Source: Terebella lapidaria (Eukaryota > Annelida > Polychaeta > Terebellida > Terebellidae). Taken from it: a stretch of DNA of 64,000 nt. The notes under the pieces are model-generated. The model saw only the letters and a program-made list of their open reading frames with translations, was not told the origin of the DNA and searched no databases. The stretch's first letter is position 1, and each line of letters starts with the position of its first letter. A program made the position numbers and the translations under genes. The stretch covers positions 62,001 to 126,000 of the forward strand of contig OX424557.1 in NCBI GenBank assembly GCA_949152475.1, in the 5' to 3' direction. Shown piece after piece: positions 11,896 to 55,510 of the stretch.

Positions 11896-11924
11896 CTTAT
11901 CAGTTATCACTGATAACTGATAAG
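11896..11924. other. Perfect 13-3-13 hairpin at the end of the 95-bp satellite
   Basis: cttatcagttatc and its exact reverse complement gataactgataag are separated by act. The left arm is ordinary satellite sequence and the right arm is its inverted copy, after which the 121-bp satellite begins. This could be a foldback formed at the array boundary. Confidence 0.9.
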
Positions 11925-11934
11925 CATTGACAAA

Positions 11935-16602: not shown

Positions 16603-17000
16603 CCTTTCAAGCTTATTGAAGGTCGAATTCAAGATCACCACTAAAATCACTGCATTCGAATTTCCATTTCGACATGTCCGAAAAAAATAACGAAATTACA
16701 GCCAGATAAAAGTTTTCACCTAAAGCTATATTTCAATTCAGAATATTTGACAAACTTGGTTCCAAGTTGCGAGATGACTAAATTGGAGCCAGATCGAACT
16801 TTTCACTATAAGTTATATTTCAACTCATACTATGTGCCAAACTTGGTTCCAAGTTGAAATTCAAAGTAAAAGTTGACCAAAACTACATTTCAAGATGACG
16901 AAATTGGAGCCAGATCAACTTTTAACCATAGTTTAAATTTTAATTCATAATATGTGCCAAACTTGGTTTCAAGTTGAAATTCGAAGTAAAAATTGACTTT
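16603..17000. repeat. Family H scrap followed by degenerate 121-bp satellite monomers
   Basis: cctttcaagcttattgaaggtcgaattcaag at 16610-16640 resembles the family H type A core. From about 16740, motifs such as gacgaaattggagccagatc and acttggtttcaag are diverged 121-bp monomers separated from the main array by 0.8 kb. They are probably older relics of the same satellite. Confidence 0.7.
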
Positions 17001-17460
17001 ACTGGTACAAATAATGTTAACTTATCCGGTTACACCCATGAAATCTCTACTGGACAAAAATTTTAAATTGTTGAGCTCAATAATAAATGTTTCTGGTCTT
17101 AACTATTTTTCTTGAGGTCAATAATAGACTTAACTAGTAAAAATGATGTTAACTTATTCGGCTACAGCCATGAAAGCTCTACTGCACAGAAGCTTTACCT
17201 TGTTGAGCCCAATAATAAATGTTTCTTGTCTTAACTATTTTTATTGTGGTCAATAATAGACTTAACTAGTAAAAATAATGTTAACTTATTCGGTTATACC
17301 TGTGAAATCTCTACTGGACAAAACCTTTACCTTGTTGAGCTCAATAATAAATTTTTCTCGTCTTAACTATTTTTATTGTGATCAATAATAGACTTAACTA
17401 GTAAAACCAATGTTAACTTATTCGGTAATATTGTTCTTTTTTCACCAAAAACATCAGTTC
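17000..17460. repeat. Tandem repeat of about 130-134 bp
   Basis: Three to four units start near 17000, 17135, 17267 and 17397 with taaaaataatgttaacttattcgg, followed by gaaatctctactg and ctttaccttgttgagc. Further units lie at 18060-18176 and 29993-30145, on either side of the ISL2EU element. The transposon therefore inserted into this repeat. Confidence 0.85.
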
Positions 17461-17960
17461 TGTATTCTGAACAAGAATCCAGTGCAATTTGCTTTCATAG
17501 TACAGGTTATTGGAGTGATCACACATGTCAAAGTAGGTATTTTAATTGTCGTAATAAGTTAACCTCTTAACTAATCAATATTTATTCGATCATTCTGAAA
17601 AACAATAGGTTTCGTGTGACGGTCTTTCTCATTGAGCCTGTGCGATTTCATCATCATTCATTGAAAACTCCCACCCGTAGAGCGTTCACAACCCATGTGT
17701 GTTAAACAGGCTAATTTGAGCACAAAATGTTACGCCAATCGGCTATTTTGGTTGCTATGGCAAGCAAAATCGATAGGTGTCCAGATCTCACCATAAGACA
17801 TGTCCATATGAAATATTATCAAAATCGGTTCATATTTTCAAGCTGCAGCGCGTTCACAAGAAAGTGTCTGCGGACGCGGCGGCGGCGGCGGCGGCGGCGG
17901 CGCGACGATCGTAAATCCATAGTATCCGCCGAACTTTGTTTGGGGGATACAATTAATTGC
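17430..17960. repeat. Unit duplicated at 30140-30495
   Basis: From ttattcggtaatattgttct through ggtttcgtgtgacggtctttc to ccatagtatccgccgaactt, this stretch matches 30140-30495 closely, apart from an extra block at 17700-17845 and an expanded (CGG)n. The pair flanks the 11.8-kb transposon. It represents two copies of one dispersed or tandem repeat rather than a target-site effect. Confidence 0.8.
17875..17904. repeat. (CGG)n microsatellite
   Basis: About nine uninterrupted cgg triplets, embedded in tctgcggacg...gcgcgacg. The duplicated copy at 30420-30450 has only a short ggcggcgg run, so the triplet expanded in this copy. Confidence 0.95.
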
Positions 17961-18176
17961 CGTTTGTATGACAGATATGCAATATTCAGTTGAATAGTTC
18001 GCTCGAAGTAACTTGACTGAACTGAAGGCAAAAAACGGTGTAAACGAGTTAAAAAAATCAGAGTATAGTAACAATACACCCATGAAATCTCTACTGAACA
18101 AAACCTTTACCTTGTTAAGCCCAATAATAATAATTTCTTGCCTTAACTATTTTTATTGTGGTCAATAATAGACTTA

Positions 18177-35083: not shown

Positions 35084-36803
35084 ATTAGCCCAAGGGCTAA
35101 GATAGGTTACCGGACAACTTTAGTTGAAACAGGACAGGTGAGATATGACGTTAAGATAAACCAATCATCTTCGTGAACTTCAATGTCATCATTAAGTGTG
35201 CAGCATATAACCTTGTATTCATGTATGTTCAAAATACAAATACAAGTTCTATCTACAAGTCTTTTGTCTATAAACGAAATTTACACATTTCTTGTTGGAC
35301 GTGACACTGAGATATAGCACTCAATGTCATCTGACGTCAAGTTCAACGTCACCCAAAAAAGCCACATATATATGTGGTATACATGTATATGACTTCCAAT
35401 TCCAGCTATACCTACAAACATTTTTTGGCTGTAGAGGCCAATTTACACACTCAAGGGGCCTTTTAAGCAATTCAAAGCACTCCATCTTTATACACAATGT
35501 CAGGGACCCCAATTAGCATGTTTTATAACAAAAATCTCAAAACTGATCAGATAAATTTGAAGGAAAACGACCAAAAATTAAATTTGGGGCCTATTCAGCC
35601 TAAATTTCTAGCCTTTTGAGCAATTCAAGGCACTTTATACACTATATACATATTTATACACATCATGTCAAAAACCCCAATTACTATGTTTTGAAATAAA
35701 AATCTCAAAAGTGATCAGACAGTTTTCGATTAAAGACAAACAAGGTGCAAATTTGGGCATTTTTCGACTCAAAAATGGCTGTTTTGACATTTCAAGGTCA
35801 TCCAAGGTCAAATTCAAGGTCACCACACAAGTCGCCATATATGACTTTCCATTTGAAAGTGCCAATATCTAAGCTCTATCTTCAAGCGTTCTATGAGTAC
35901 AGTCCCGGCAGCTCTCATTATGAAGGAAAAAAGTGCCGAAAATTTTCTAAGTCCAAAATTTTTTTCAAAGGGTGAAAATTTTTTTTTGTCTAGAAATGAC
36001 CCAAAATGGATAGTAATGCGATTTGGGACCAAAAAAAATTTTTTTCGCCGACCCGTCAAAAATTCAAAATGGCCGCCACACGGAGACCGGCGATTCAAGG
36101 GCAACAAAACTTATAGACATCATAAAGGTACATAAGGGTAATATTTTGAAACAATAATCTCAAAACTGATCAGACAGTTTTCGAGAAAAGACTCCAGGTG
36201 CAAATTAAAGCATTTCTCGACCCAAGAATGGCTGTTTTGACCTTTCAAGGTCATCCAAGGTCAAATTCAAGGTCACCACACAAGTCGCCATATATGACTT
36301 TCCATTTGAAAGTGCCAATATCTAAGCTCTATCTTCAAGCGTTCTATGAGTACAGTCCCGGCAGCTCTCATTATGAAGGAAAAAAGTGCCGAAAATTTTC
36401 TAAGTCCAAAATTTTTTTCAAAGGGTGAAAATTTTTTTTTGTCTAGAAATGACCCGAATTGGATAGTAACGCGATTTGGGACCAAAAAAATTTTTTTCGC
36501 CGACCCGTCAAAAATTCAAAATGGCCGCCACACGGAGACCGGCGATTCAAGGGCAACAAAACTTATACACATCATAAAGGTACATAAGGGGAATCTTTTG
36601 AAACAAAAATCTCAAAACTGATCTGACAGTTTTTGAGAAAATGGCCGCCAAAGTCCAAAATTGGCCATTTTTCGTCAAAAATGGCCGCCATTTTGAGAAG
36701 AATGCGAAAATCAAAAAACTAAAAAATAAGCCCCTCTTGAAATATTTTTAGGCAACTTTGTGCAAAATTTCAGGAAAATCCGCCTGTAAACTTTAAAGAT
36801 AAA
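35084..36803 (+). mobile_element. Family H copy, type A, 3' end replaced by the next copy
   Basis: Starts aaaattagcccaagggctaagataggttaccggac. The body contains two type A core units about 453 bp apart (atggctgttttgac at 35775 and 36228) carrying aaggtcaaattcaaggtcacc and a gaaaatggccgcc tail. It ends at gataaaa where the next copy begins, so its terminal hairpin is missing. The second core unit is nearly identical to 40082-40475. Confidence 0.85.
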
Positions 36804-38154
36804 ATTAGGCCAAGGGCCAAAGATAGGTTACCGGACAATGTTTAATATTTTAGAAGTTAGCCAGGTCACTGGTTGAATTCAAGGTCAAAAGAATATTCAG
36901 CATATATAACATTAAGCATATATCATGTCCACAGTTGATTGCTAAGCTGTAAATTCAATAATCAGAGAGATATAAGCAATTTTGTGCTGTGGCCTTGAAA
37001 ATGAAGGGGCAAAAGTCAAATTCAAGGTCATCAAAATATTCATTGTATATCATTTTCTATATGATGTCCACAATTGATTCCCAAGCCATACATATGAGCC
37101 AATATGTATGAGCCTTGGACCTTGGAAAATGAGGTCAGAGGTCAAATTCAAGGTCACGAGAATATTCAGCATATATCATTTCCTATATGTCCACAATTGA
37201 TTCCTAAGCTGTAAAATCGATAATAAGTAAGATATCAGCCATTTTGTCCTGTTACCTTGAAAATGAGGTCAAAGGTCAAATTCAAGGTCATGACAATAAT
37301 CTGCATATATCATTTCCTATATGTTCATAATTGATTACTAAGCTGTAAAGTCGATAACAAGCGAGATATTAGCCATTTTGTCCTGTGACCTTGAAAATGA
37401 GGTCGAAGGTCAAATTCAAGGTCATCAGAATATTCAGCATATATCATTTCCTATATGTCCACAATTGATTCCTAAGCTGTAGAGTCGATAATAAGCGAGA
37501 TATAAGCCATTTTGTGCTCTGACCTTGAAACTGAGGTCAGAGGTCAAATTCAAGGTCACGAGAATATTCAGCATATATCATTTCCTATATGTCCACAATT
37601 GATTCCTAAGCTGTAGAGTCGATAATAAGCGAGATATAAGCCATTTTGTGCTCTGACCTTGAAACTGAGGTCAGAGGTCAAATTCAAGGTCACGAGAATA
37701 TTCAGCATATATCATTTCCTATGTGTCCACAATTGATTCCTAGTCTCTAATCTCAATATTAAGTGAGATATTAGGCATAATGTGTCCCATTATAAAGCAT
37801 AGGAGAATTTAACATGGGAAAGTCCCATCTGGGCCGAGTTTGGGCCCAAAATGGCCCACTTCGAGCGATTCAAGCGCAACGAAATTTATAGACATCATAG
37901 AAGTACATATGAGGAGTGTTATGTATCAAAAAGAAAAAAAGTTACTGAACAGATTTTGAGAAAATGGCAGCCAAAGTCCAAAATCAGGCATTTTTCGTCG
38001 AAAACGGCCGCCATTTCGAAAAAAATGCGAAAATCAAAAAACTAAAAAATACCTCCTTCTTGAATTATTTTCAAGTATTTTTGTGCAAAATTTCAGAGGA
38101 ATTCGCCCGTAAACAAAAAAGATAAAAATGTGGACGACGACGACGACGACGACG

Positions 38155-38195
<41 letters not shown>

Positions 38196-38257
38196 ACGAC
38201 GGACGACGGACGCAACGCCATGCCAATAGGTTATCGGACCATAGGTCCGGTAACCTA
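36804..38257 (+). mobile_element. Family H copy, type B, with both ends
   Basis: Begins attaggccaagggccaaagataggttaccggac and ends at the hairpin cggaccataggtccg followed by gtaacctaa. The body has four to five 134-bp units (37100-37740) with repeated nuclear-receptor half-sites, then the tail (aaaatggcccacttcgagcg, gaaaacggccgcc) and a long (GAC)n stretch at 38131-38210 just before the hairpin. Confidence 0.87.
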
Positions 38258-38769
38258 AAAATGTGGACGGACGACGGACGGACGCAACGAGACGGCAATA
38301 GGTTATCGGACCATAGGTCCGGTAACCTAAAAAAGTTACTGAACAGATTTTGAGAAAATGGCCGCCAAAGCCCAAAATTGACCGATTTTCGACGAAAACG
38401 ACAAATTCAAAATGGCCGCCACACGCAGACCAGCGAATCAAGGGCAACGAAACTTATACACATTATGAAGGATATAATAAGGCATCCTTGTGCAAAAAAA
38501 GAAAAAAAGTTACTGAACAGATTTTGAGAAAATGGCCGCCAAAGTCCAAAATTGGCCAATTTTCGAAGAAAACGGCCGCCATTTTGAAAATATTGTGAAA
38601 ATCAAAAAACTAAAAAATACATCCTTCTTGAATTATTTCTGTGCATTTTTGTGCAAAATTTCAGAAAGATTGGTCCGTAAACAAAAAAGATAAAAATGTG
38701 AACGCCGACGCCGACACCGGACGCAACGCCATGCCAATAGGTTATCGGACCATAGGTCCGGTAACCTAA
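38258..38769 (+). mobile_element. Two concatenated 3' tails of family H
   Basis: 38258-38330 repeats only atgtggac...ggtccggtaacctaa. 38331-38769 repeats a longer tail starting aaagttactgaacag and ends again in the hairpin and gtaacctaa. They follow the full type B copy directly, head to tail. Confidence 0.85.
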
Positions 38770-41700
38770 AAAAATTAGCCCAAAGGCTAAGATAGGTTAT
38801 TGGACAATTTTGGTTTGGCCATGGCAGCATTGGCAGGTAACAGACCTTGAGATTTACCAATCAAGGTTTGCAGTGTAAACATATGACCTTGGGATTTACC
38901 AATCAAGGTCATCCGTATGAACTTCGATGTAACCATTACATGTATGTGTGCGGCATTTGATATTCTATATGTTGGGTGGAATCGTTTAGGCCGCCTAGGT
39001 CAATTTACACATTCCAAGTCAGACATTTGGCACTCAAGGTCATCTGACGTCAAGTTCAAGGTCATCATTAGTTGTGCCATATATGTCTTCCTATATGTTC
39101 ATAATGCAAACATGAGCTCTATCTGCAAGCATTTCATCTACAAAGGCAAATCTGGGCATTTTTTGACCCCAAAATGGCTGTTTTGACCTTTCAAGGTCAT
39201 CGAAGGTCAAATTCAAGGTCACCACACAAGTCGGCATATATGACTTCTCATTTGAAAGTGCCAATTTCTAAGCTCTATCTTCAAGCGTTCTATGAGTACA
39301 GTCCTGACAGCTCCCATTATGAAGGAAAAAAGTGCCGAAAATTTTCTAAGTCCAAAATTTTTTTCAAAGGATGAAAATTTTTTTTTGCCTAGAAATGGCC
39401 CAAAATGGATAGTAATGTTATTTGGGGCGAAAAAAATTTTTTTCGCCGACTCGTCAAAAAATTCAAAATGGCCGCCACACTGAGATCGGCGATTCAAGGG
39501 CAACAAAACTTATACACGTCACAGAGGTATATGAGAGGAATCTTTTTAAGCAAAAATCTCAAAACTGATCAGACAGTTTTTGAGAAAATACAGACCAGGT
39601 GCAAATTTGAGCGTTTTTCGACCCAAAAATGGCTGTTTTGACCTTTCAAGGTCATCCAAGGTCAAATTCAAGGTCACCACACAAGTCGCCATATATGACT
39701 TCCCATTTGAAAGTGCCAATTTCTAAGCTCTATCTTCAAGCGTTCTAAGAGTACAGTCCGGACAGCTCCCATTATGAAGGGAAAAAGTGCTGAAAATTTT
39801 TTAAGTCCAAAATTTTTTTCAAAGGGTGAAAATTTTTTTTTGTCTAGAAATGACCCAAAATGGATAGTAATGCGATTTGGGACCAAAAAAAATTTTTTTC
39901 GCCGACCCGTCAAAAATTCAAAATGGCCGCCACACGGAGACCGGCGATTCAAGGGCAACAAAACTTATAGACATCATAAAGGTACATAAGGGTAATATTT
40001 TGAAACAATAATCTCAAAACTGATCAGACAGTTTTCGAGAAAAGACTCCAGGTGCAAATTTGAGCATTTCTCGACCCAAGAATGGCTGTTTTGACCTTTC
40101 AAGGTCATCCAAGGTCAAATTCAAGGTCACCACACAAGTCGCCATATATGACTTTCCATTTGAAAGTGCCAATATCTAAGCTCTATCTTCAAGCGTTCTA
40201 TGAGTACAGTCCCGGCAGCTCTCATTATGAAGGAAAAAAGTGCCGAAAATTTTCTAAGTCCAAAATTTTTTTCAAAGGGTGAAAATTTTTTTTTGTCTAG
40301 AAATGACCCAAAATGGATAGTAACGCGATTTGGGACCAAAAAAATTTTTTTCGCCGACCCGTCAAAAATTCAAAATGGCCGCCACACGGAGACCGGCGAT
40401 TCAAGGGCAACAAAACTTATACACATCATAAAGGTACATAAGGGGAATCTTTTGAAACAAAAATCTCAAAACTGATCAGACAGTTTTTGAGAAAATGGCC
40501 GCCAAAGTCCAAAATTGGCCATTTTTCGTCAAAAATGGCCGCCATTTTGAGAAGAATGCGAAAATCAAAAAACTAAAAAATAACCCCCTCTTGAAATATT
40601 TTTAGGCAACTTTGTGCAAAATTTCAGGAAAATCCGCCTGTAAACTTTAAAGATAAAAATGTGGACGGACGACGGACGACGGACGACGGACGGACGCAAC
40701 GCGACGGCAATAGGTTATCGGACCATAGGTCCGGTAACCTAAAAAAGTTACTGAACAGATTTTGAGAAAATGGCCGCCAAAGCCCAAAATTGACCGATTT
40801 TCGACGAAAACGACAAATTCAAAATGGCCGCCACACGCAGACCAGCGAATCAAGGGCAACGAAACTTATACACATTATGAAGGATATAATAAGGCATCCT
40901 TGTGCAAAAAAAGAAAAAAAGTTACTGAACAGATTTTGAGAAAATGGCCGCCAAAGTCCAAAATTGGCCAATTTTCGACGAAAACGGCCGCCATTTTGAA
41001 AATATTGTGAAAATCAAAAAACTAAAAAATACATCCTTCTTGAATTATTTCTGTGCATTTTTGTGCAAAATTTCGGAAAGATTGGTCCGTAAACAAAAAA
41101 GATAAAAATGTGAACGCCGACGCCGACACCGGACGCAACGCCATGCCAATAGGTTATCGGACCATAGGTCCGGTAACCTAAAAAAATTAGCCCAAAGGCT
41201 AAGATAGGTTATTGGACAATTTTGGTTTGGCCATGGCAGCATTGGCAGGTAACAGACCTTGAGATTTACCAATCAAGGTTTGCAGTGTAAACATATGACC
41301 TTGGGATTTACCAATCAAGTCATCCGTATGAACTTCGATGTAACCATTACATGTATGTGTGCGGCATTTGATATTCTATATGTTGGGTGGAATCGTTTAG
41401 GCCGCCTCTAGAGGTCAATTTACACATTCCAAGTCAGACATTTGGCACTCAAGGTCATCTGACGTCAAGTTCAAGGTCATCATTAGTTGTGCCATATATG
41501 TCTTCCTATATGTTCATAATGCAAACATGAGCTCTATCTGCAAGCATTTCATCTACAAAGGCAAATCTGGGCATTTTTTGACCCCAAAATGGCTGTTTTG
41601 ACCTTTCAAGGTCATCGAAGGTCAAATTCAAGGTCACCACACAAGTCGGCATATATGACTTCTCATTTGAAAGTGCCAATTTCTAAGCTCTATCTTCAAG

Positions 41701-42240
41701 CGTTCTATGAGTACAGTCCTGACAGCTCCCATTATGAAGGAAAAAAGTGCCGAAAATTTTCTAAGTCCAAAATTTTTTTCAAAGGATGAAAATTTTTTTT
41801 TGCCTAGAAATGGCCCAAAATGGATAGTAATGTTATTTGGGGCGAAAAAATTTTTCTTCGCCGACTCGTCAAAAAATTCAAAATGGCCGCCACACTGAGA
41901 TCGGCGATTCAAGGGCAACAAAACTTATACACGTCACAGAGGTATATGAGAGGAATCTTTTTAAGCAAAAATCTCAAAACTGATCAGACAGTTTTTGAGA
42001 AAATACAGACCAGGTGCAAATTTGAGCGTTTTTCGACCCAAAAATGGCTGTTTTGACCTTTCAAGGTCATCCAAGGTCAAATTCAAGGTCACCACACAAG
42101 TCGCCATATATGACTTCCCATTTGAAAGTGCCAATTTCTAAGCTCTATCTTCAAGCATTCTAAGAGTACAGTCCGGACAGCTCCCATTATGAAGGGAAAA
42201 AGTGCTGAAAATTTTTTAAGTCCAAAATTTTTTTCAAAGG
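38332..42240 (+). repeat. 2.41-kb tandem segmental duplication
   Basis: The stretch from about 38332 recurs from about 40744 at a constant offset of 2412-2415 bp (for example aaaatggccgccaaagccca at 38357 and 40769). The first unit is complete to 40743; the second is kept to about 42240. Differences are few (for example a 4-bp ctag insertion near 41405), so the event is recent. Confidence 0.9.
38774..40742 (+). mobile_element. Family H copy, type A, with both ends
   Basis: Starts attagcccaaaggctaag five bases after the previous gtaacctaa. It contains three core units (39174, 39629 and 40082 for atggctgttttgacc) and ends with a (GGAC)n run and the hairpin at 40705-40742. The type A stem-loop gaccttgagatttaccaatcaaggt lies at 38846-38870. 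Confidence 0.87.
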
Positions 42241-42702
42241 GTGAAAAATTTTTTTTGCCCTAGAAATGGCCCAAAATGGATAGTAATGCGATTTGGGGCG
42301 AAAAAATGTTTTTTTGCCGACCCGCCAAAAATTCAAAATGGCCGCCACACGGAAACCGGCAGATTTAGGGCAACCAAACTTATACATATCACAGAGGTAT
42401 ATGAGGGGAATCTTTTGAAACCAAAAACTCAAAACTGATCAGACAGTTTTTGAGAAAATGGCCGTCAAAGTCCAAAATTGAGCGTTTTTCGACAAAACCG
42501 GCCGCCATTTTGAAAAAAATGCGAAAATCAAAAAACAAAAAAATACCTCCTTCTCAAAATATTTTTAGGCATTTTTGTGCAAAATTTCAGAAAGATTTGA
42601 TCGTTAACTTTAAAGATAAAAATGTTAACGCCGGCCGGACGGACGGACGACGGACGCAACGCCATGCCAATAGGTTATCGGACCAAAGGTCCGGTAACCT
42701 AA
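40743..42702 (+). mobile_element. Family H tail plus a second full type A copy
   Basis: 40743-41181 is a tail (aaagttactg to gtaacctaa) and 41186-42702 a full copy ending at ggtccggtaacct. Most of it is the second unit of the 2.41-kb duplication, but the last 460 bp (42240-42702) come from a different copy, with gccctagaaatggcc and caaaggtccgg variants. Confidence 0.85.
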
Positions 42703-42949
42703 AATCGAACATTTTGGGAGAAAACAGGGGGGTGTGCTACTATTAGGGCATGTGCCACTATTAGGACCAATACAGTCAGTCAACAAACTGGGCCACATTT
42801 ATCAACATGTGATCAAATTAAGCTCTTTTTAGCCCATAAAAGCCTTATTGCGGTGTGGAACATTGCAAAGAATACGACTGAATGGGTAAAATTGTGAAAA
42901 TTGTGAATGGTCGACTCATCGACGAACCATGACAGACACCGTGTTAATA

Positions 42950-43640
42950 AGTTACCAATCTGTAGCGTATATGATGTGAGATATGTGATGTGAGATGTGT
43001 GATGTGAGATACGTGATGTGAGAGATATGATTTGACATAATTGATGTGAGATATATATGTGATGTGAGATACATGATGTGAGATATGTGGTATGAGATAC
43101 ATGTATGTGATGTGAGATAATATATGTGGTATGAGATACATGTATGTGATGTGAGATAAGTGATGTGAGATATGTGGTATGAGATACATGTATGTGATGT
43201 GAGATATGTGGTATGAGATACATGTATGTGATGTGAGATATATGATGTGAGATATGTGGTATGAGATACATGTAAGTGATGTGAGATATATGATGTGAGA
43301 TATGTGGTATGAGATACATGTATGTGATGTGAGATAAGTGATGTGAGATATGCAGTATGAGTTACATATATGTGATGCGAGATATGTGATGTGAGATATG
43401 CGGTATGAGATACATGTATGTGATGTGAGATATGCGGTATGAGATACATGTATGTGATGTGAGATATGTGATGTGAGATATGCAGTATGAGATACATGTA
43501 TGTGATGTGAGATATATGATGTGAGATATGTATGTGATGTGAAATATGTGGTATGAGATACATGTATGTGATGTGAGATATATGATGTGAGATATGTGAT
43601 GTGAGATACATGTATGTGATGTGAGATATGTGATGTCATG
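42950..43640. repeat. GATGTGAGATAT-type minisatellite
   Basis: Irregular array of gatgtgagatat and ggtatgagatacatgtat blocks, arranged in units of 32-48 bp. Minus-strand frames rich in Ile, Ser, His and Thr come from this composition. It lies immediately downstream of the host exon's 5' splice site, within the presumed intron. Confidence 0.92.
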
Positions 43641-43677
43641 TTATGGCAGCCATGTATCTGAGTGGTTTGTGACGGAC

Positions 43678-43913
43678 CTGGCTGAGCTGGGCTCTGCTGC
43701 CATGGACCGGTCTCCTGGGGTGAAGGCTCCTGGGGGTAGGGCTCCTGGGGATAGGGCGGGGGTGGGGGCAGACTGCCAAGCTTCGTGCCGTGGAGGGTGG
43801 GCAGACCCTGGGTGGAGGGCAGCGGCTGGCGGCACCCCATCGGCAGACTGTGTGATGTGGCTTGGCGTCTTCCGGGACCGATCACCGCGTTCTGGAAACC
43901 TCCGCCCACGTGG
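43678..43913 (-). CDS. Internal exon of the unidentified Pro/Gln-rich host protein
   Basis: Minus-strand open frame bounded by a ttttcctatagcag acceptor and an AG-gtccgt donor. It encodes about 78 residues: HVGGGFQNAVIGPGRR, then a Gly/Leu/Pro linker, a proline-rich PPPPPYPQEPYPQEP stretch and GPWQQSPAQP. It ends with one base of a split codon; the exon at 30650-31113 starts with two, giving a clean Val. Composition and GC content match that exon and differ from the AT-rich repeats around. Family H starts about 13 bp upstream of the acceptor. The intervening intron would be 12.6 kb, almost all repeats. I do not recognise the protein. Confidence 0.6.
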
Positions 43914-43926
43914 CTGCTATAGGAAA

Positions 43927-45743
43927 ATTAGCCAAAGGGCTAAGATAGGTTACCGGACAATTTTGGTTTTAAGCATTGCAGGTGACATTACTGACATATG
44001 ACCTTGAGATTTACTAATCAAGGTCATCTTTGTGAACTGCAATGTCATCATTAGGTATGCTGCATATGACTTCATATATGTTCATAATACAAACATATAA
44101 GCTCTATCAACAAGTATTTTGTCTGTAGAGGTCATGTACACATGTCAGGTCAGGCAAGATTGTGAGATTTGGCCTTCAAGGTCACATATAAGGTCAAATT
44201 CAAGGTCACCAAAAGATGTGCCATAGATACATGACTTCTTGTAAGCTTATATACAATCCTAACCTGTACGTGGAAGTGTTTAAGCCTCGGTGGCTATAAT
44301 TCACACATTTCAGTCAAGGTCATTCGCGGTCAAGCTCAAGGTGATCATCATTTGTCATGATTGTTCCATATATGACTTCCCATATGCTCATAATGCAATC
44401 TTAAGCTCTATTTACAAGCATTTCATCTGTAGAGGCAAATCTGGGCATTTTTAGACACCAACATGGCTGTTTTGACCTTTCAAGGTCATCTAAGGTCAAA
44501 TTCAAGGTCACCACACAAATCGCCAGATATGACTCCCCATTTGAAAGTGCCATCTAAGCTCTCCAAGCGTTCTATGAGTACAGTCCGGGCAGCTCCCATT
44601 ATCATGATTATGCAGGAAAAAAGTCCCAATTTTTTTTTCAAAGGGTGAAAATTTGTTTTCTCCTAGAGAATGGCCCAAAATGGATAGTAATTGCGATCTG
44701 GGGCGAAAAATTTTTTTTTCGCCAACTCGTCAAATATTCAAAACGGCCGACACACGGAGACCGGCAATTCAAGGGCAACCAAACTTATACACATCACAGA
44801 GGTACGTAAGGGGAACCTTTTAAAACAAAAACTTACCCCCAAAGGCTAAGATATAGGTTACCGGACAATTCTGGTTTGGCCATGGCAGCATAGGCAGGTA
44901 ACAGACCTTGAGATTTACCAATCAAGGTTCGCAGTGTGAACATATGACCTTGAGATTTACAAATCAAGGTCATCCGTGTGAACTTCGATGTCACCATTAC
45001 ATGTATGTGTGCGGCATTTGATATTCTATATGTTCATAATACGAAGATATATCTGAGTGGAATCGTTTAGGCCACTCAGGTCAATATACACATTACGAGT
45101 CAGACATTTGGCACTCAAGGTCATCTGACGTCAAGTTCAAGGTCATCATTAGTTGTGCCATATATGTCTTGCTATATGTTCATAATGCAAACATGAGCTC
45201 TATCTGCAAGCATTTCATCTATAGAAGCAAATCTGGGCATTCTTTTACCCCAAAATGGCTGTTTTGACCTTTCAAGGTCATCGAAGGTCAAATTCAATGT
45301 CACCACACAAATCGCCATATATGACTTCCCATTTGAAAGTGCCAATATCTAAGCTCTATCTTCAAGCGTACTATGAGTACAGTCCTGGCAGCTCCCATTA
45401 TGAAGGAAAAAAGTGCCGAAAATTTTCTAAGTCCAAATTTTTTTTCAAAGGGTGAAAAATTTTTTTGTCTAGAAATGGCCCAAAATGGATAGTAATGCGA
45501 TTTGGGCCGAAAATTTTTTTTTCCGTCGACCCGTCGAAAATTCAAAATGGCCGCCATACGCAGACCGGCAATTCAAAGGCAACCAAACTTATACACATCA
45601 CAGAGGTACATAAGGAGAATCATTTCAACCAAAAATCTTAAAACTGATCAGACAGTTTTTGAGAAAATGACCGCCAAAGTTCAAAATTGAGCGTTTTTCG
45701 ACAAAAATGGCCGCCATTTTGAGAAAAATGCGAAAATAAAAAA
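43927..45743 (+). mobile_element. Two successive family H type A copies lacking 3' ends
   Basis: Copy starts at 43927 (attagccaaagggctaag) and 44831 (cccaaaggctaagatataggtt). Each shows the stem-loop and the atggctgttttgacc core (44463 and 45255) but stops without a hairpin where the next copy begins. The first runs into aaaacaaaaa, the second into gcgaaaataaaaaa. Confidence 0.82.
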
Positions 45744-48116
45744 ATTAGCCCAATGGGCTAGAAAGGTTACCGGAGAAATATACAGAGTTAAGCCGAGAAA
45801 GTTGAAGGTCAAATTCAAGGTGACCACTGAAATCGCCATATCTCTGACCTTGAAAATGGGATCAAAGGTTAAATTCTAGATCACCAAACTATTCAGCATA
45901 CATCATTTCCTATATGTTCACTCTGGACCCCTAAGCTGTAAATTTGATAATAAGCGAGATATAAGACATTTTGTAATCTGACTTTGAAAATAAAATCACT
46001 GAAATTGAAATTTAGGTAAAAGGTCAAATTCAATATCATTAAAATATTCAGAATATATCATTTCCTATATGTTCACAATTGATTCCTAAGCTGTAAAGTC
46101 GATAATAAGCGAGATATTAGCCATTTTGTCCTGTTGACCTTGAAAATGAGGTCAAAAGTCAAATTCAAGGTCACTAGAATATTCAGCATATATCATTTCC
46201 TATATGTTCAAAATTGATTTCTAAGCTGTAAAGGCGATAATAAGCAAGATATTGGCCATTTTGTCCTGTGACCTTGAAAATGAGGTCAAAGGTCAAATTC
46301 AAGGTCATGAGAATATTCAGCATATATCATTCCTATATGTTCACAATGGATTCCTAAGCTGTAAAGTCGATAATAAGCGAGATATTAGCAATTTTGTCCT
46401 GTGACCTTGGAAATGAGGTCAGAGGTCAAATTCAAGGTCATGAGAATGTTCAGCATATATCATTTCCTATATGTTCACAATTGATTCCTAAGCTGTAAAG
46501 TCGATAATAAGCGAGATATTAGCCATTTTGTCATGTGACCTTGAAAATGAGGTCAAACGTCAAATTCAAGGTCATGAGAATTTTCAGCATATATCATTTC
46601 CTATATGTTCACAATTGATTCCTAAGCTGTAAAGTCGCTAATAAGCAAGATATTGGCCGTTTTGTCCAGTGACCTTGAAAATGAGGTCAAAGGTCAAATT
46701 CAAGGTCACGATAATTCTCAGCATATATCATTTCCTATATGTTCACAATCGATTCCTAAGCTGTAAAGTCGCTAATAAGCAAGATATTGGCCATTTTGTC
46801 CTGTGACCTTGAAAATGAGGTCAAAGCTCAAATTCAAGGCCATGAGAATATTCAGCATATATCATTTCCTATATGTTCACAATTGATTCCTAAGCTGTAA
46901 AGTCGATAATAAGCGAGATATTAGCAATTTTGTCCTGCGACCTTGGAAATGAGGTCAAAGGTCAAATTCAAGGTCACGAAAATATTCAGCATATATCATT
47001 TCCTATATGTTCACAATTGATTCCTAAACTGTAAAGTCGATAATAAGCGAGATATTAGCCATTTTGTCATGTGACGTTGAAAATGAGGTCAAAGGTCAAA
47101 TTCAAGGTCACAAGAATATTCAGCATATATCATTTCCTATATGTTCACAATTGATTCCTAAGCTGTAAAGTCGATAATAAGCGAGATATTAGCCATTTTA
47201 TCTTGCGACCTTGAAAATGAGGTCAAAAGTCAAATTCAAGGTCACGAGAATATTCAGCATATATCATTTCCTATATGTCCACAATTCATTCCTAGTCTCT
47301 AATTTCAATATTAAGTGAGATATTAGGCTTAATGTGTGCCATTATAAAGCATAGGAAAATTTAACATGGGAAAGTCACATTTGGGCCGAGTTTGGGCCCA
47401 AAATGGCCCACTTCAAGCGATTCAAGCGCAACGAAATTTATACATGTCACAGGGGTACATATGAGGAGTGTTTTTCATCAATAAGAAAAAAAAGTTACTG
47501 AACAGATTTTGAGAAAACGACCGTCGAAGACCAAAATTGGCCATTTTTCGACGAAAACGGCCGCTCTGACCTTGAAACCAAGGTCAGAGGTCAAATTCAA
47601 GGTCACGACAATATTCAGTATATATCATTTCCTATATGTCCACAATTGATTCCTAGTCTCTAATCTCAATATTAAGTGAGATATTAGGCTTTAATGTGTC
47701 CCATTATAAAGCATAGGAGAATTTAACATGGGAAAGTCCCATTTGGGCTGAGTTTGGGCCCAAAATGGCCCACTTCGAGCGATTCAAGCGCAACGAAATT
47801 TATACATGTCACAGGGGTACATATGAGGAGTGTTATGCATCAATAAAAAAAAAAGTTACTAAACAGATTTTGAGAAAATGGCCGCCAAAGTCCAAAATTA
47901 GGCATTTTTCGTCGAAAACGGCCGCCATTTTGAAAAAAATGCGAAAATCAAAAAACTAAAAAATACCTCCCTCTCGAAATATTTTTAGGCATTTTTGTGC
48001 AAAATTTCAGAAAAATTCGATCGTAAACTTTAAAGATAAAATTGTTGATGGACGACGACGACGACGCCGGACGCATCGCCATGCCAATAGGTTACGGATC
48101 AAGGTCCGGTAACCTA
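45744..48116 (+). mobile_element. Family H copy, type B, long, with 3' end
   Basis: Begins attagcccaatgggctagaaaggttaccgg. It has about ten 134-bp units (45830-47290), a tail duplicated once (47380-47570 and 47580-48060) and a short (GAC)n run with a degraded hairpin (gttacggatcaaggtccggtaacct). Confidence 0.85.
46100..47290. repeat. 134-bp tandem array rich in nuclear-receptor half-sites
   Basis: Each unit contains TGACCT, 8 bp, AGGTCA, 1 bp, AGGTCA, 6 bp, AGGTCA, that is an everted repeat (ER8), a canonical DR1 (AGGTCAAAGGTCA) and a DR6. TCAAGGTCA, the ERR/NR5A monomer consensus, recurs in every unit. Similar arrays lie at 37260-37740, 49020-49670, 51983-52740 and 54410-55040. Binding is inference; the motifs and spacing are visible. 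Confidence 0.85.
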
Positions 48117-50227
48117 AAAATAACCCCCTCTTGAAATATTTCTAGGCATTTTTGTGCAAAATTTCAGGAAAATCCGCCTGTAAACTTTAAAGATAAAAAT
48201 TAGCCCAAGGGCTAAGAAAGGTTACCGGACAATACATTTTAGATATTAGCCTTTTGTCCAGTGACCTTGAAAATAAAGTCACTGATAAATTCAAGGCCAT
48301 GAAATTTTCAACAAATATATCACTTCTAGTATGTCCACAATAAATTCCTAAGCTGTAAAGTCGATAATAAGTGAGACAGTGAGACCTTGAAAATGAGGTC
48401 AAAGTTCAAGTTCAAGGTCATGAAAATATTCAGTATATATCATTCCTCTATATTCGCAATTGATTCCTATGCTGTAAATGTAAGTATCAATCTATTACCA
48501 CCAATACAATCAGATTTTGATGATGCCAATAAGAAACGCAAAATACTACATTTTGCAATAGAAACAAACAAAGCCCGACCAAACAGTTTATCCAAAGACA
48601 CACTGGCGTCTTCAGGGGCAGACAATGTGTTAAATCTAGTTGTTTCTACTGTACACCAGATGGAATTAGTATACAACTGCCCAACAACCTATGAAAATAA
48701 TTTAGAAATCCGAATCCAACCCCATGGAACAGATACATGACAAGTACAAAAGTACCCAATCACAAGCCCGAAGGCTACGGAGTTGATGGTATCCTCGGGA
48801 ACAGATTTAACCTCCGCCAGCAGTGACACCGACTCAGTGATATAAATGTAAGTATCAATCTATTACCACCAATACAATCAAATTTTGATGATGCCAATAA
48901 GAAACGTAAAATACAACATTTTGCAATAGAAACAAAGCCCGACCAAATAGTTTATCCAAAGACACACTGGTGTCATCAGGGGCAGATGTAAAGATGATAA
49001 TAAGCGATATATTAGCCATTTTGTTCTCTAACCTTGAAAATGAGATCAAAGGTCAAATTCTAGATCACCAAAATATTCAGCATACATCTTTTCCTATATG
49101 TTCACTCTGGACCCCTAAGCTGTAAATTTGATAATAAGCGAGATCTAAGCCATTTTATATTCTGACTTGAAAATAAAATGACTAACCTTGAAATTTAGGT
49201 CAAGGGTCAAATTCAAGGTCACTAGAATATTCAGCATATATTATTTCCTATATGTTCACAATTGATTCCTAAGCTGCAAAGTCGCTAATAAGCAAGATAT
49301 TGGCCATTTTGTCCTGTGACCTTGAAAATGAGGTCAAAGGTCAAATTCAAGGTCACGAGAATATTCAGCATATATCATTTCCTATATGTTCACAATAGAT
49401 TCCTAAGCTGTAAAGTCGATAATAAGCGAGATATTAGCCATTTTGTCCTGTGACCTTGAAAATGAGGTCAAAGGTCAAATTCAAGGTCACGAGAATATTC
49501 AGCATATATCATTTCCTATATGTTCACAATTGATTTCTAAGCTGTAAAGTCGATAATAAGCGAGATATTAGCCATTTTGTCCTGTGACCTTGAAAATGAG
49601 GTCAAAGGTCAGATTCAAGGTCACGAGAATATTCAGCATATATCATTTCCTATATGTCCACAATTGATTCCTAGTCTCTAATCTCAATATTAAGTGAGAT
49701 ATTAGGCTTAATGTGTCCCATTATAAAGCATAGGAAAATTTAACATGGGAAAGTCACATCTGGGCCGAGTTTGGGCCCAAAATGGCCCACTTCGAGTGAT
49801 TCAAGCGCAACGAAGTTTATACATGTCACAGAAGTACATATGAGGAGTGTTATGCATCAATAAAAAAAAAAGTTACTGAACACATTTTGAGAAAACCACC
49901 ATCAAAGTCCAAAATTAGCCATTTTCGACGAGAACGGCCGCTATGACCTTGAAACCAAGGTCAGAGGTCAAATTCAAGGTCACGACAATATTCAGCATAT
50001 ATCATTTCCTATATGTCCACAATTGATTCCTAATCTCTAATCTCAATATTAAGTGAGATATTAGGCTTAATGTGTCCCATTATAAAGCATAGGAGAATTT
50101 AACATGGGAAAGTCCCATTTGGGCCGAGTATGGGCCAAAATGGCCCACTTCGAGCGATTGAAGCGCGACGAAATTTATAGACATCATAGGAGTACATATG
50201 AGGAGTGTTATGTATCAAAAAGAAAAA
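48117..50227 (+). mobile_element. Family H tail fragment and a type B copy with foreign insert
   Basis: A short tail piece (48117-48198) precedes a type B start (attagcccaagggctaagaaaggttaccgg, 48199). The body holds 134-bp units at 48330-48480 and 49020-49670, separated by unrelated sequence (48464-49000). It ends in the usual tail without a hairpin where a type A copy begins. Confidence 0.8.
48464..49000 (+). other. Captured sequence, partly duplicated, with coding-like frame
   Basis: About 150 bp (gtaagtatcaatctattacc ... ggggcaga) occurs at 48479-48631 and again at 48848-48987, with a 4-bp difference. Between them, 48480-48740 has an open frame (LLPPIQSDFDDANKKRKIL, SGADNVLNLVVSTVHQMELV) unlike the repeats around it. 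It may be a fragment of a gene carried by the element. I do not recognise the protein, and the duplicated copy is not open through the same length. Confidence 0.5.
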
Positions 50228-51310
50228 ATTAGCCCAAGGGCTAAGATAGGTTACCGGACAATTTTGGCTTTAAGCATTGCAAGTGACATATGACTTTGAG
50301 ATTTACTAATCAAGGTCATCTTTGTGAACTGCAATATCACCATTAGGTATGCTGCATATGACTTCATATATGTTCGTAATACAAACATATAAGCTCTATC
50401 AACAAGTATTTTGTCTGTAGAGGCCAATTTACACATGTCGGGTCAGGCAAGGTTGTGAGATTTGGATTTCAAGGTCATATATAAGGTCAAATTCAAGATC
50501 TCCAAGAGATGTGCTATAAATACATGACTTCTTGTTAGCTTATACACAATCCTAACCTGTATGTGCAAGTGTTTAAGCCTTGGCTAATTTACATATTTCA
50601 CATCAGACATTTAGCACTCAAAATCATCTGAGGTCAAGGTCATCATCAGTTGTTCCATATTATATGACTTCCTATATGCTCATAATGCAAACTTTTAAAG
50701 CTCTATCTACAAGCATTTCATCTGTAGAGGCAAATCTGTGCATTTTTTTCTACCCCAAAATGGCTGTTTTGACCTTTCAAGGTCATCAAAGGTCAAATTC
50801 AAGGTCACCACACAAGTCGCCATATATGACTTCCCATTTGAAAGTGCCAATTTCTAAGCTCTATCTTCAAGCGTTCTATGAGTACAATCCGCGCAGCTCC
50901 CATTATGAAGGAAAAAAGTGCCGAAAATTTTCAAGTCCAAAATTTTTTTCACAGGGTGAAAAATTTTTTTTGTCTAGAAATGGCCCTAAATGGATAGTAA
51001 TGCGATTTGGGCCGGAAAAATGTTTTTTTCGTCGACCCTTCGAAAATTCAAAATGGCAGCCATACGCAGACCGGCGATTCAAGGGCAACCAAACTTATAC
51101 ACATCACAGAGGTACATAACTAGAATCTTTTGAAACAAAAATCTCAAATCTGATTAGACAGTTTTCGAGAAAAGACAGACAAGGTGCTAATTTGGACATT
51201 TTTCGACCAAAAAATGGCTGTTTTGACCTTTCAAGGTCATCCAAGATCAAATTCAAGGTCACCACACAAGTCGCCATATATGACTTTCCATTTGAAAGTG
51301 CCAATTTCTA
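50228..51310 (+). mobile_element. Family H copy, type A, truncated
   Basis: Starts attagcccaagggctaagataggttaccggac and resembles the 43927 copy in its first 350 bp (ggctttaagcattgcaagtgac). It has core units at 50758 and 51214 and stops at gtgccaatttcta, where unrelated sequence follows. Confidence 0.82.
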
Positions 51311-51980
51311 GGGCCTGCACGATTAATGGGTTAACCGCCGACGGCTAGCATTTTTTTAATAACCGCCTGTTAAATCTCCAAACGATTAACCGGTTAACCG
51401 TCAAACACCGGTTAACTGTCTTTTATAACCTTGATCAGTGATCACCAAACTGTCTGCTCATGCTCCTGAGGCATGCTTTTGAGGGCATTTAACTCGTTAA
51501 CTTTGTCGCCATGGGGCCATAAAGCGATCTGCGGTTTGTCGTGGTCGCGTGGATGCGTGCCACCTGCTAAAGGGATTATGTGTGTGCATCTTTCACAGAT
51601 ACACAGGCTCGCGGCTTTCTCTCATATTAATATCGAAATTAATGAAGTTAAATAGGGGAAATACAAGTTTTCTTAAATGAAACATAAAGACACCTACACA
51701 CACATAGACATATAGCAATCAAAACCATTCGGGGGACGTATTAAGAAGTGAACCCCAAACACTTCGCCTCAGGCTTAACTTCGAATGGTAAGGATTGTAT
51801 ATGTGAAAGAATGTGCAATGTTAGGTATAACGCAATCAGAACTGGAAAGAGCACACATATTCAGTAATATGCAAAATATGTACAGTTAATACAGTTTAGT
51901 TCATTGAGTTATACATATATGTTGAGGTTATATTTCAACATTTTCCAAATCTTCACCAAGAAGTAAAAGATTTAAAAAAA
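51311..51980. other. Unclassified interspersed sequence between family H copies
   Basis: Opens gggcctgcacgattaatggg with repeated ggttaaccg motifs, which recalls ends of hAT-like DNA elements, but I find no matching inverted end. An inverted pair accattcg/cgaatggt lies at 51723-51790. No gene is visible. The left flank is type A and the right flank type B, so a deletion or recombination accompanied it. Confidence 0.45.
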
Positions 51981-53121
51981 TGAGGTCAAAGGTCAAATTC
52001 AAGGTCATCAGAATATTAGGCGTTTATCATTTCCTATATGCCCACAACTGATTCCTAAGCTATAAAGTCGACCATAAGTGAGATATTAGCCATTTTGTGT
52101 TCTTGACCTTGAAAATGAGGTCAGAGGTCAAATTCAAAGTCACAAGAATATTCAGCATATATCATATCCTACATGTCCACAAATGATCCCGAAGCTGTAA
52201 AATCGATAATAAGTGAGATATTAATCATTTTGTCCTGTGACCTTGAAAATGAGGTCAAAGGTCAAATTCAAGGTCATGACAATAATCTGCATATATCATT
52301 TCCTATATGTTCATAATTGATTCCTAAGCTGTAAAGTCGATAAGAAGCGAGATATTAGCCATTTTGCCGTGACCTTGAAAATGAGGTCAAAGGTCAAGTT
52401 CAAGGTCATGACAATAATCTGCATATATCATTTCCTATATGTTCATAATTGATTCCTAAGCTGTAAAGTCGATAATAAGTGAGATATTAGCCATTTTGCC
52501 CTGTGACCTTGAAAATGAGGTCAAAGGTCAAATTCAAATTCATGACAATATTCTGCATATATCATTTCCTATAGGTTCACAATTGATTCCTAAGCTGTAA
52601 AGTCGATAATAAGCGAGATATTAGCCATTTTGTTCTCTGACCTTGAAACCGAGGTCAGAGGTCAAATTCAAGGTCACGAGAATATTCAGCATATACCATT
52701 TCCTATATGTCCACAATTGATTCCTAGTCTCTAATCTCGATATTAAATGAGATATAAGGCTTAATGTGTCCCATTATAAAGCATAGGAGAATTTAACATG
52801 GGAAAGTCCTATTTGGGCCGCGTTTGGGCCAAAATGGCCCACTTCGAGCGATTCAAGCGCAACAAAATTTATAGACATCATAGGAGTACATATGAGGAGT
52901 GTTATGTATCAAAAAAAAAAAAGTTACTGAACAGATTTTGAGAAAATGGCCGCCAAAGTCCAAAATTGGCTGATTTTCGACGAAAACGGCCGCCATTTTG
53001 AAAGAAATGCGAAAATCAAAAAACAAAAAAATACCTCCCTCTCGAAATATTTTTAGGCATTTTTGTGCAAAATTTCAGAAAGATTCGACCGTAAACAAAA
53101 AAGATAAAAATGTGGACGACG

Positions 53122-53153
<32 letters not shown>

Positions 53154-54229
53154 ACGGACGACGGACGCAACGCCATGCCAATAGGTTAGCGGACCAAAGG
53201 TCCGGTAACCTAAAAAGTTACTGAACAGATTTTGAAAAAACGACCGTCAAAGTCCAAAATTGGCCATTTTTCGACGAAAACGGCCGCCATTTTGAAAAAA
53301 ATGCGAAAAGCAAAAAACTAAAAAATACCTCCTTTTTGAATTATTTTTAAGCATTTTTGTGCAAAATTTCAGAAAAATCCGATCGTAAACTTTAAAGATA
53401 AAATTGTTTACGGACGGACGGACGGACGGACAGACGGACGGACGGACGACGGACGCAACGCCATGGCAATAGGTTATCGGACCATAGGTCCGGTAACCTA
53501 AAAAAGTTACTGAACAGATTTTGAGAAAACGACCATCAAAGTCCAAAATTAGCCATTTTCGACGAGAACGGCCGCTATGACCTTGAAACCAAGGTCAGAG
53601 GTCAAATTCAAGTTCACGAAAATATTCAGCATATATCATTTCCTATATGTCCACAATTGATTCCTAGTCTCTAATCTCAATATGAAGTGAGATATTAGGC
53701 TAAATGTGTCCCATTATAAAGCATAGGAGAATTTAACATGGGAAAGTCCCATTTGGGCCGAGTATGGGCCAAAATGGCCCACTTTGAGCGATTCAAGCGC
53801 GACGAAATTTATAGACATCATAGGAGTACATATGAGGAGTGTTATGTATCATAAAGAAAAAAAGTTACTGAACAGATTTTGAGAAAACGACCGTCAAAGT
53901 CCAAAATTGGCCATTTTTCGACGAAAACGGCCGCCATTTTGAAAAAAATGCGAAAATTAAAAAACTAAAAAATACCTCCTTTTTGAATTATTTTTAAGCA
54001 TTTTTGTGCAAAATTTCAGAAAAATCCGATCGTAAACTTTAAAGATAAAATTGTTTACGGACGGACGGACGGACGGACGGACGACGGACGCAACGCCATG
54101 GCAATAGGTTATCGGACCATAGGTCCGGTAACCTAAAAATGTGGGCGGACGACGGACGACAGACGACGGACGGACGACGGACGCAACGTGACGGCAATAG
54201 GTTACCGGACCATAGGTCCGGTAACCTAA
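51981..54229 (+). mobile_element. Family H type B copy followed by three concatenated tails
   Basis: 134-bp units run from 51983 to 52740, then a tail with (GAC)n and the hairpin at 53180-53213. Additional tails end at 53501, 54135 and 54229, each in cataggtccggtaacctaa preceded by ggacgg repeats. The start of this type B copy is missing. Confidence 0.85.
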
Positions 54230-54231
54230 AA

Positions 54232-55510
54232 ATTAGGCCAAGGGCCGAAGATAGGTTACCGGACAATATTTAATATTTTAGATGTTAGCCAGGTCACTGG
54301 TTGAATTCAAGGTCAAGAGAATATTCAGCATATATAACATTAAGCATATATCATGTCCACAGTTGATTGCTAAGCTGTAAATTCAATAATCAGAGAGATA
54401 TTAGCAATTTTGTGCTGTGGCCTTGAAAATGAAGGGGCAAAGGTCGAATTCAAGGTCATCAAAATATTCAATGTATATCATTTTCTATATCATGTCCACA
54501 ATTGATTCCCAAGCCATACACTCAATAGAGGAGCAAGATATGAGCCAGTTTGTCCTGTGACCTTGAAAATGAGGTCAGAGGTCAAATTCAAGGTCCCGGG
54601 AATATTCAGCATATATCATCTCCTATATGTCCACAATTGATTCCTAAGCTGCATAATCGATAATAAGTGAGATATTAGCCATTTTGTCCCGTGACCTTGA
54701 AAATGAGGTCAAAGGTCAAATTCAAGGTCATGACAATAATCTGCATATATCATTTCCTATATGTTCATAATTGATTGCTAAGCTGTAAAGTCGATAACAA
54801 GCGAGATATTAGCCATTTTGTCCTGTGACCTTGAAAATGAGGTCGAAGGTCAAATTCAAGGTCATCAGAATATTCAGCATATATCATTTCCTATATGTCC
54901 ACAATTGATTCCTAAGCTGTAGAGTCGATAATAAGCGAGATATAAGCCATTTTGTGCTCTGACCTTGAAACTGAGGTCAGAGGTCAAATTCAAGGTCACG
55001 AGAATATTCAGCATATATCATTTCCTATATGTCCACAATTGATTCCTAGTCTCTAATCTCAATATCAAGTGAGATATTAGGCATAATGTGTCCCATTATA
55101 AAGCATAGGAGAATTTAACAAGGGAAAGTCCCATTTGGGCCGAGTTTGGGCCAAAATGGCCCACTTCGAGCGATTCAAGTGCAACGAAATGTATAGACAT
55201 CATAGGAGTACATATGAGGAGTCTTATGTATCAAAAAGAAAAAAAGTTACTGAACAGATTTTGAGAAAATGGCCGCCAAAATCCAAAATTGGCCGATTTT
55301 CGACAAAAACGGCCGCCATTTTGAAAAAATTGCGAAAATCAAAAAACTAAAAAATACCTCCTTCTTGAATTATTTTTGTGCATTTTTGTGCAAAATTTCA
55401 GAAAGATTGGTCCGTAAACAAAAACGATAAAAATGTGGACGACGCCGACGCCGGACGCCGGACGCAACGCCATGCCAATAGGTTAGCGGACCAAAGGTCC
55501 GGTAACCTAA
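54232..55510 (+). mobile_element. Family H copy, type B, with both ends
   Basis: Begins attaggccaagggccgaag, two bases after the previous gtaacctaa, and ends with cggaccaaaggtccg and gtaacctaa. It closely resembles 36804-38257 (same opening, cagagagatat, and ggccttgaaaatgaagggg), so the two share a recent source. Confidence 0.87.

Follow-up and report, generated by a model that had tools for sequence, protein, structure and literature searches.

What are the two short motifs that recur between positions 35084 and 55510 of a 64,000-nucleotide stretch of the annelid Terebella lapidaria (contig OX424557.1), and what put so many of them side by side? An original prediction, made before any genome search, had seen at least ten copies of a repeat with a left and a right motif there and suggested a rolling-circle element of the Helentron type. 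We call the whole stretch the window and give coordinates as window positions; the span studied is 35084-55510. The motifs are very probably the two ends of a family of non-autonomous Helentrons (HINEs). We assign them to this class because the anatomy and order of the ends match descriptions of HINEs, empty sites lie in T-runs, the genome encodes Rep, and Rep-encoding elements share the 3' terminus.

Repeated ends on one strand

Genome searches covered the whole assembly (761.6 Mb, 438 contigs). The shared motifs are real. The left one matches the window six times at up to three mismatches, against none in 100 shuffles, and the right one eleven times, with none in shuffles. Within the span the left-type core occurs ten times with up to two mismatches (35101, 36822, 38791, 41203, 43944, 44852, 45761, 48216, 50245 and 54250) and the right-type core twelve times with none (38244, 38316, 38755, 40728, 41167, 42688, 48103, 53199, 53487, 54122, 54215 and 55496). 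A single strand carries all 22 core ends. When the whole window was shuffled, up to three mismatches gave on average 0.8 left-core and 0.7 right-core matches. Genome-wide, the exact 15-mer core is found 9,389 times (4,611 and 4,778 on the two strands) and its reversed control once (0 and 1).

The sense strand of the family is the minus strand of the window. What had been read as the right motif is thus the biological 5' end and the left motif the 3' end, and the junctions, described as A-runs, are T-runs on the sense strand.

Anatomy of the ends

On the minus strand an element begins with a T-run and the 5' terminus, TTTT-AGGTTACCGGACC-tat-GGTCCGATAACCT, after which come a GTC/GTCC microsatellite and then tandem repeats. 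The 3' end runs GTCCGGTAACCT..TTAGCCCTTGGGCTAA, or written out GTCCGGTAACCTATC-TTAGCCCTTGGGCTAA, and is followed by a T-run. Complementary subterminal inverted repeats (subTIRs) of 11-15 bp lie near both ends, AGGTTACCGGAC at the 5' and GTCCGGTAACCT at the 3' end, as in HINEs. We gathered 58 five-prime and 66 three-prime ends by pattern from fetched sequence. Beside the 5' subTIR they have the inverted repeat (IR) expected of a HINE, AGGTTACCGGACC-tat-GGTCCGATAACCT, in whose commonest form 12 of 13 positions pair. The 3' subTIR is followed by a palindrome, also a HINE feature, whose main forms are TTAGCCC-TT-GGGCTAA and TTTGGCC-CTT-GGCCTAA. In the second form both sides of one pair are changed and another pair is broken, judged by eye across 18 variants; the two forms are one event, short of a formal covariation test.

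A microsatellite is present too, as are central tandem repeats with units of 134 or 455 bp, both of them HINE features. There are 64 stop-to-stop frames of at least 70 amino acids (aa), the longest being 180 aa outside a spacer array at 42.8-43.9 kb and 327, 227 and 182 aa inside it. A Pfam scan of five of the 64 gave none over the cut-off, in keeping with a HINE, which has no coding capacity. The asymmetric inverted repeats, the right-end hairpin, the microsatellite and the A-run junctions are as first described. The structural features given for HINEs in PMC4067079 and PMC7492417 are present and, read along the minus strand, follow one another as described there.

Insertion into T-runs

L047 is a complete copy of 1.54 kb. 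From its 40 further long matches we took 37 with their flanks; this sample was picked for similarity to one copy. The T-run before AGG is exactly five T long in 23 of the 37, four in two, two in one and longer in 11. After CTAA it has four or more T in 34 and two or three in the other three. All 37 have at least two T on both sides.

Searches with joined flanks gave empty sites for three of 16 elements and then for one of six (five of them repeated), and a local search gave spanning matches for eight of the 37 copies. Three candidates (L068, L071 and L072) were dropped, the spanning match being a neighbouring element, and L094 and L095 count as one site since their flanks are alike. Of the best 40 places in the first joined-flank search, 38 belong to one abundant repeat, which contains 11-12 T in a row; this repeat, which also flanks L067 (C15:30684995 and others), serves as a HINE target.

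The nine independent paralogous empty sites show no target duplication, as had been predicted, and put the insertion point between two T of a T-rich target. The filled site gained four T at five of them (L064, L079, L096, L092 and L073), five at two (L094/L095 and L066), two or three at L067, in its run of 11-12 T, and none or one at L047, where the paralog is only about 83% alike. L073 is the most telling. Its empty site reads TATA-TTTT-C in all seven fetched empty sites (TATATTTTC), and the filled site reads TATA-TT, the element, then TTTTTT-C. Four T were gained, the longest repeat across the insertion is TT, and there is thus no room for a 4-bp duplication.

This bears on whether these are instead cut-and-paste (DDE) elements resembling miniature inverted-repeat transposable elements, with a TTTT target duplication supplying the four extra T. 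Such a duplication would fit the four-T gain at five of nine sites, and the runs of four or more T that stand before the 5' end of 36 and after the 3' end of 34 of the 37 copies. It does not fit the seven empty sites of L073, which lack any 4-bp repeat or fixed duplication, or the joints of only two T in five of the 89 pure-T joints among 100 listed head-to-tail junctions. Nor are the ends simple terminal inverted repeats, the 3' subTIR lying inside a palindrome and the 5' one being doubled as a hairpin, and this 3' end also terminates a Rep/PIF1 element. A DDE origin is therefore very improbable. We saw neither a consistent duplication nor any DDE element bearing these ends, though no dedicated search for a DDE transposase was made. 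We infer that about four T travel with the HINE, usually on its 5' side, and that it usually inserts after the first T of a run. Thomas et al. (PMC4067079) describe the T as part of the element and variable in number, and the variable number here agrees with this.

A Rep-encoding family with the same 3' terminus

A profile search with PF14214 (Helitron_like_N) gave at least 150 Rep matches in the genome (150 of 234 candidates were scored, all over the cut-off). Many sit in frames of more than 2,000 residues, and many of the Rep frames also contain PIF1 helicase matches (at least 150 rows). The window has none of the 150 Rep matches, which agrees with the prediction. A C-terminal AP endonuclease, a Helentron feature, was noticed by eye beside no Rep match among the 150 scored of 2,067 candidates, in a search swamped by other elements. 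The motif RGSPHAH (RG-S-PH) is present in all 30 fetched Rep matches (the best 30 of the 150, family G, described below, not among them), and its S is the Helentron residue (PMC4067079).

Several features separate the family from canonical Helitrons, which begin with 5'-TC, carry a hairpin about 11 bp before a terminal CTRR and insert between A and T. The 3' CTAA would fit CTRR, a palindrome is nearby and there is no target duplication, as in canonical Helitrons. However, TC is missing from the 5' end, the palindrome sits directly at the terminus and not some 11 bp inward of it, and insertion is between T and T. Together with the 30 Helentron-type Rep matches, none of them from family G, these differences make a canonical Helitron family most improbable, and we retain the HINE assignment.

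Which Rep might move these HINEs? HINE copies do occur near Rep loci, one complete (L047) and one as a 3' end only (L055), and no HINE termini were found within 1.5 kb of 30 Rep matches. We read the 3' sides of eight Rep loci. In one of them, that of family G (L114, C5), the 3' end is present in sense, as CTCCGGTAACCTTTCTAGCCCTTGGGCTAA-T7; at L113 the palindrome is in the opposite orientation, and L110 has a weak one with three mismatches. The last 42 bp of family G are 97.6% identical to window 45738-45779. Eleven bases, TCCGGTAACCT, are identical in family G and the HINEs; PMC4067079 groups elements into one family by identical subTIRs of at least 11 bp, and by that rule the two belong together on the 3' side.

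A search with the family G 3' region (1,009 candidates, 40 scored) gave 32 further matches that reach the end. In 27 of the 32, similarity breaks off at query 726-730, a position marked by CTAA and a few T, and in five at 731-742. For 24 of the 33 matches with the 3' end, a family G-type Rep is upstream on the same strand, at 6.3-8.0 kb in 20, and PIF1 is listed for ten; no Rep is listed for the other nine. This count examined 32 of the 33 ends, omitting C11:20119045 (which ends at query 731 and has no listed Rep nearby), and drew on 34 of 150 Rep rows and 15 of 150 PIF1 rows, picked for resemblance to family G. At C1:38295697 one more Rep, of another family, lies by eye within 32 kb of an end on the same strand, at a distance of 23 kb, and is excluded from the 24. 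In five family G copies Rep and PIF1 share one frame, of the same length for both (2,514-2,548 aa):

C2:57087025
C16:2297268
C9:36049350
C14:35161006
C15:23807343

The stop in similarity and the same-strand Rep together indicate that the 3' end of the HINE family also closes a Rep/PIF1 element. Through this terminus, the family G elements are the best candidates so far for acting on the HINEs in trans. The search suggested originally, for Rep/helicase elements with the same termini, had a divided outcome: the 3' terminus is shared with family G, the 5' terminus was not found, and a candidate region differs.

Several observations weigh against this picture. No Rep element with both HINE ends was found, and the HINE 5' end was not found as a Rep element's own in stretches of 3-4 kb lying 1.5-5.5 kb upstream of 20 Rep matches. 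A GGAG-type 5' end was sought with two patterns, which matched at 26 and 31 places, but at no place close to a family G Rep. Upstream of the C9 family G-type Rep there is instead a differing candidate 5' region, CCCCGAACAAAGTTCAGCGGATA (L118, by eye). Five more distant matches to the family G 3' region (82-85% alike) stop at query 448, without such a 3' end. As for the target, the T gain varies between the nine empty sites, and in T-runs the T borne by the element and a short TT duplication cannot be fully separated. Searches for imperfect hairpins and for shared boundaries of similarity gave no clear Helentron 5' ends. On the minus strand near 17.9 kb the window has CCCCCAAACAAAGTTCGGCGGATA, which, like CCCCGAACAAAGTTCAGCGGATA, precedes the same kind of tandem array; by eye, the two look like one 5' region unlike that of the HINEs.

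The terminus of family G could be a chance HINE fragment downstream of Rep, the true partner being another Helentron, unsampled or extinct. The differing 5' region and the HINE copies that adjoin Rep loci (L047 and L055) are in favour of this. A chance fragment would not explain why similarity stops at the terminus, within five bases, in 27 of 32 other matches, or why Rep is 6.3-8.0 kb away on the same strand in 20 of 24 Rep-linked copies; and no HINE body accompanies the terminus, none having been found in front of it at L114. We consider chance somewhat unlikely, and continue with family G as the leading candidate partner.

If the region upstream of the C9 Rep is the 5' end of family G, the two ends of family G would differ in origin. 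Helentron 3' termini might be portable modules and family G a hybrid now present in some 30 copies, an unlikely reading. A Rep element could have overrun its own end, ended at the 3' terminus of a neighbouring HINE and spread with it; insertion in the same orientation into each other's T-runs would set up such neighbouring termini. A family G element beginning with the shared 5' end, AGGTTACCGGA.., would be a full partner, and one beginning with the C9-like region, CCCCGAACAAAGTTC.., would support the hybrid.

Recent copies and one-way clusters

With L047 as query there were 5,977 candidate places in the genome, and the 40 that were scored gave 41 nearly full-length matches at 96-100% identity including the query (other copies 96-99%). 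The 37 copies and L047 diverge from their majority sequence by 0.65 to 2.1%, with a mean of about 1.2% substitutions, gaps ignored; because similarity guided the choice of sample, these figures date no more than the youngest group. The HINE family is recently active and very abundant.

At least one flank of 16 of the 37 copies contains HINE sequence. Same-orientation (plus-strand) matches are found in all 16, and L072 alone has minus matches too. Across the genome a 3' end is followed by a 5' end within 16 bases 1,126 times, against none for the reversed pattern. The joint is pure T in 89 of 100 listed junctions: T5 in 51, T4 in 13, T6 in seven, T7 in six, T8 in six, T2 in five, T10 in one and T3 in none. 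Four of the other matches (GAT) are no junction and seven have mixed spacers. The common orientation is that of the sampled copies, and the genome-wide search was one for junctions in the same orientation.

We suggest the following route. A Rep/helicase made elsewhere in the genome would nick at the T-run beside the 5' hairpin, and a single strand would be peeled off as far as the 3' subTIR and palindrome. Joining would then take place in a T-run of the target, as a rule just behind the first T of that run. As both the flanks and the body contain T-runs and the polarity is fixed, new copies would pile into old ones in the same orientation. The polarity of the T-runs, with repeated insertion beside or inside older copies, would thus give one-way nested and head-to-tail clusters with no extra mechanism required, although T4 joints could also be rolling-circle concatemers.

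The window region is such a cluster. It holds ten left-type and twelve right-type ends, but there is no one-to-one match between 5' and 3' ends, which belong to a nested and head-to-tail cluster, not to ten separate copies. Its features are as follows.

35085-35115, minus strand, 3' terminus (palindrome and 3' subTIR), the original left motif, exact
36805-36836, minus strand, 3' terminus, subfamily with TTAGGCC..GGCC palindrome
38775-38805, minus strand, 3' terminus, head-to-tail with 5' terminus 38733-38769, T7 junction
41187-41217, minus strand, 3' terminus, head-to-tail with 5' terminus 41145-41181, T7 junction
43928-43958, minus strand, 3' terminus
44852-44866, minus strand, 3' subTIR core
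45745-45775, minus strand, 3' terminus, GGAG variant, nearest to the 3' end of Rep-encoding family G
48200-48230, minus strand, 3' terminus
50229-50259, minus strand, 3' terminus, exact
54233-54264, minus strand, 3' terminus, GGCC subfamily, head-to-tail with 5' terminus 54193-54229, T5 junction
38222-38258, minus strand, 5' terminus (5' subTIR and IR hairpin)
38294-38330, minus strand, 5' terminus
38733-38769, minus strand, 5' terminus
40706-40742, minus strand, 5' terminus
41145-41181, minus strand, 5' terminus
42666-42702, minus strand, 5' terminus
48103-48117, minus strand, 5' subTIR core, degraded IR
53177-53213, minus strand, 5' terminus
53465-53501, minus strand, 5' terminus
54100-54136, minus strand, 5' terminus
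54193-54229, minus strand, 5' terminus
55474-55510, minus strand, 5' terminus
38133-38208, unstranded, GAC/GTC microsatellite immediately inside 5' end
53115-53163, unstranded, GAC/GTC microsatellite immediately inside 5' end
53410-53455, unstranded, ACGG/GTCC-type microsatellite immediately inside 5' end
37118-37778, unstranded, central tandem repeats, 134 bp, 4.9 copies
46005-47326, unstranded, central tandem repeats, 134 bp, 9.9 copies
49185-49705, unstranded, central tandem repeats, 134 bp, 3.9 copies
51977-52755, unstranded, central tandem repeats, 134 bp, 5.8 copies
54304-55084, unstranded, central tandem repeats, 134 bp, 5.7 copies
39146-40495, unstranded, central tandem repeats, second kind, 455 bp, 3.0 copies
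41555-42493, unstranded, central tandem repeats, second kind, 455 bp, 2.1 copies

Other repeats in and around the cluster

Two HINE blocks flank a degenerate GATGTGAGATAT-type tandem array at 42967-43636 and the GC-rich stretch that follows it. HINE bodies also contain other DNA at about 48476-48990 and 51310-51970, the first holding, by eye, a near-duplicate of itself. Outside the span, the same HINE family is represented by a diverged 5' end at 3748-3784 and a diverged 3' end at 2826-2840. The sequence TCAAGGTCA is found at 102 places in the window, mostly at 35.7-55.0 kb and many within tandem-repeat monomers, where 0.7 are expected; we take it to be an extended half-site for nuclear receptors of the ERR/SF-1/FTZ-F1 type, a putative role based on its letters.

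A second Helentron/HINE-like family, with repeats of about 120 bp (GTCATCTTGAAATGCAGTTTTGGTCAAC), occupies about 11900-18000 on the minus strand and is also seen in L117 and L118. Its candidate 5' region, CCCCCAAACAAAGTTCGGCGG, is near 17926-17946, and its tandem array is the one upstream of the family G Rep. Further repeats contain ..GGGGGATACACCCA..GGTCG-hairpin..CTAG followed by T (window 16543 and 4344, minus strand; L005:1951; L044:3435, minus; and L117 into L045), and resemble the 3' ends of Helitrons or proto-Helentrons. Some 100 bp ahead of this structure, L005 and L117 contain a decayed copy of the family G 3' end, much as though a former terminator had been overrun.

Comparison with known Helentrons

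The family offers a very large and recently active set of HINEs whose class is backed by empty sites, a cluster that shows why such elements form nested one-way arrays, and, through the 3' end, a tie to Rep/PIF1 elements that are themselves present in many copies. With both kinds looking recent, the genome would lend itself to tests of how Helentron ends are recognised.

The closest likeness is to Cg_HINE of Crassostrea gigas, whose order is 5' subTIR, IR, microsatellite, repeats, 3' subTIR and palindrome. Both have the 5' subTIR, the IR, a GTCC-type microsatellite, central repeats and the 3' subTIR followed by the palindrome, and both have a T-rich target, no target duplication and many copies (PMC7492417). 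The central tandem repeats of Cg_HINE are mostly 140-180 bp long and unrelated between several families, and in T. lapidaria a single kind of ends encloses repeats of either 134 or 455 bp; the likeness is one of description. In C. gigas, 11 Cg_HINE elements could not be related to any of 10 autonomous Helentrons (PMC7492417), whereas here a Rep-encoding family has the HINE 3' end. In open-licence literature on Helentrons and HINEs we found no title or abstract opening that reports a link between a HINE and an autonomous element in a mollusc. The Pearl elements of bivalves also have short tandem arrays between conserved flanks, as described in PMC7492417, again a likeness of description.

In common with the Helentrons and HINEs of a mite, Culex and Drosophila, the family has subTIRs, a palindrome at the 3' end, insertion at TT, a varying number of T that belong to the element, and a genome that also encodes Rep with the Helentron residue (PMC4067079). 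In those species the autonomous partners resemble the HINEs over long stretches (84-99.9% identity in two mite subfamilies) and share terminal structures with them, whereas only the 3' end is shared here so far. The IR beside the 5' subTIR is like that of DINE-1 and unlike mite HINEs (PMC4067079). HINEs with tandem repeats are already known from bivalves and insects, and the family of T. lapidaria is a good new example.

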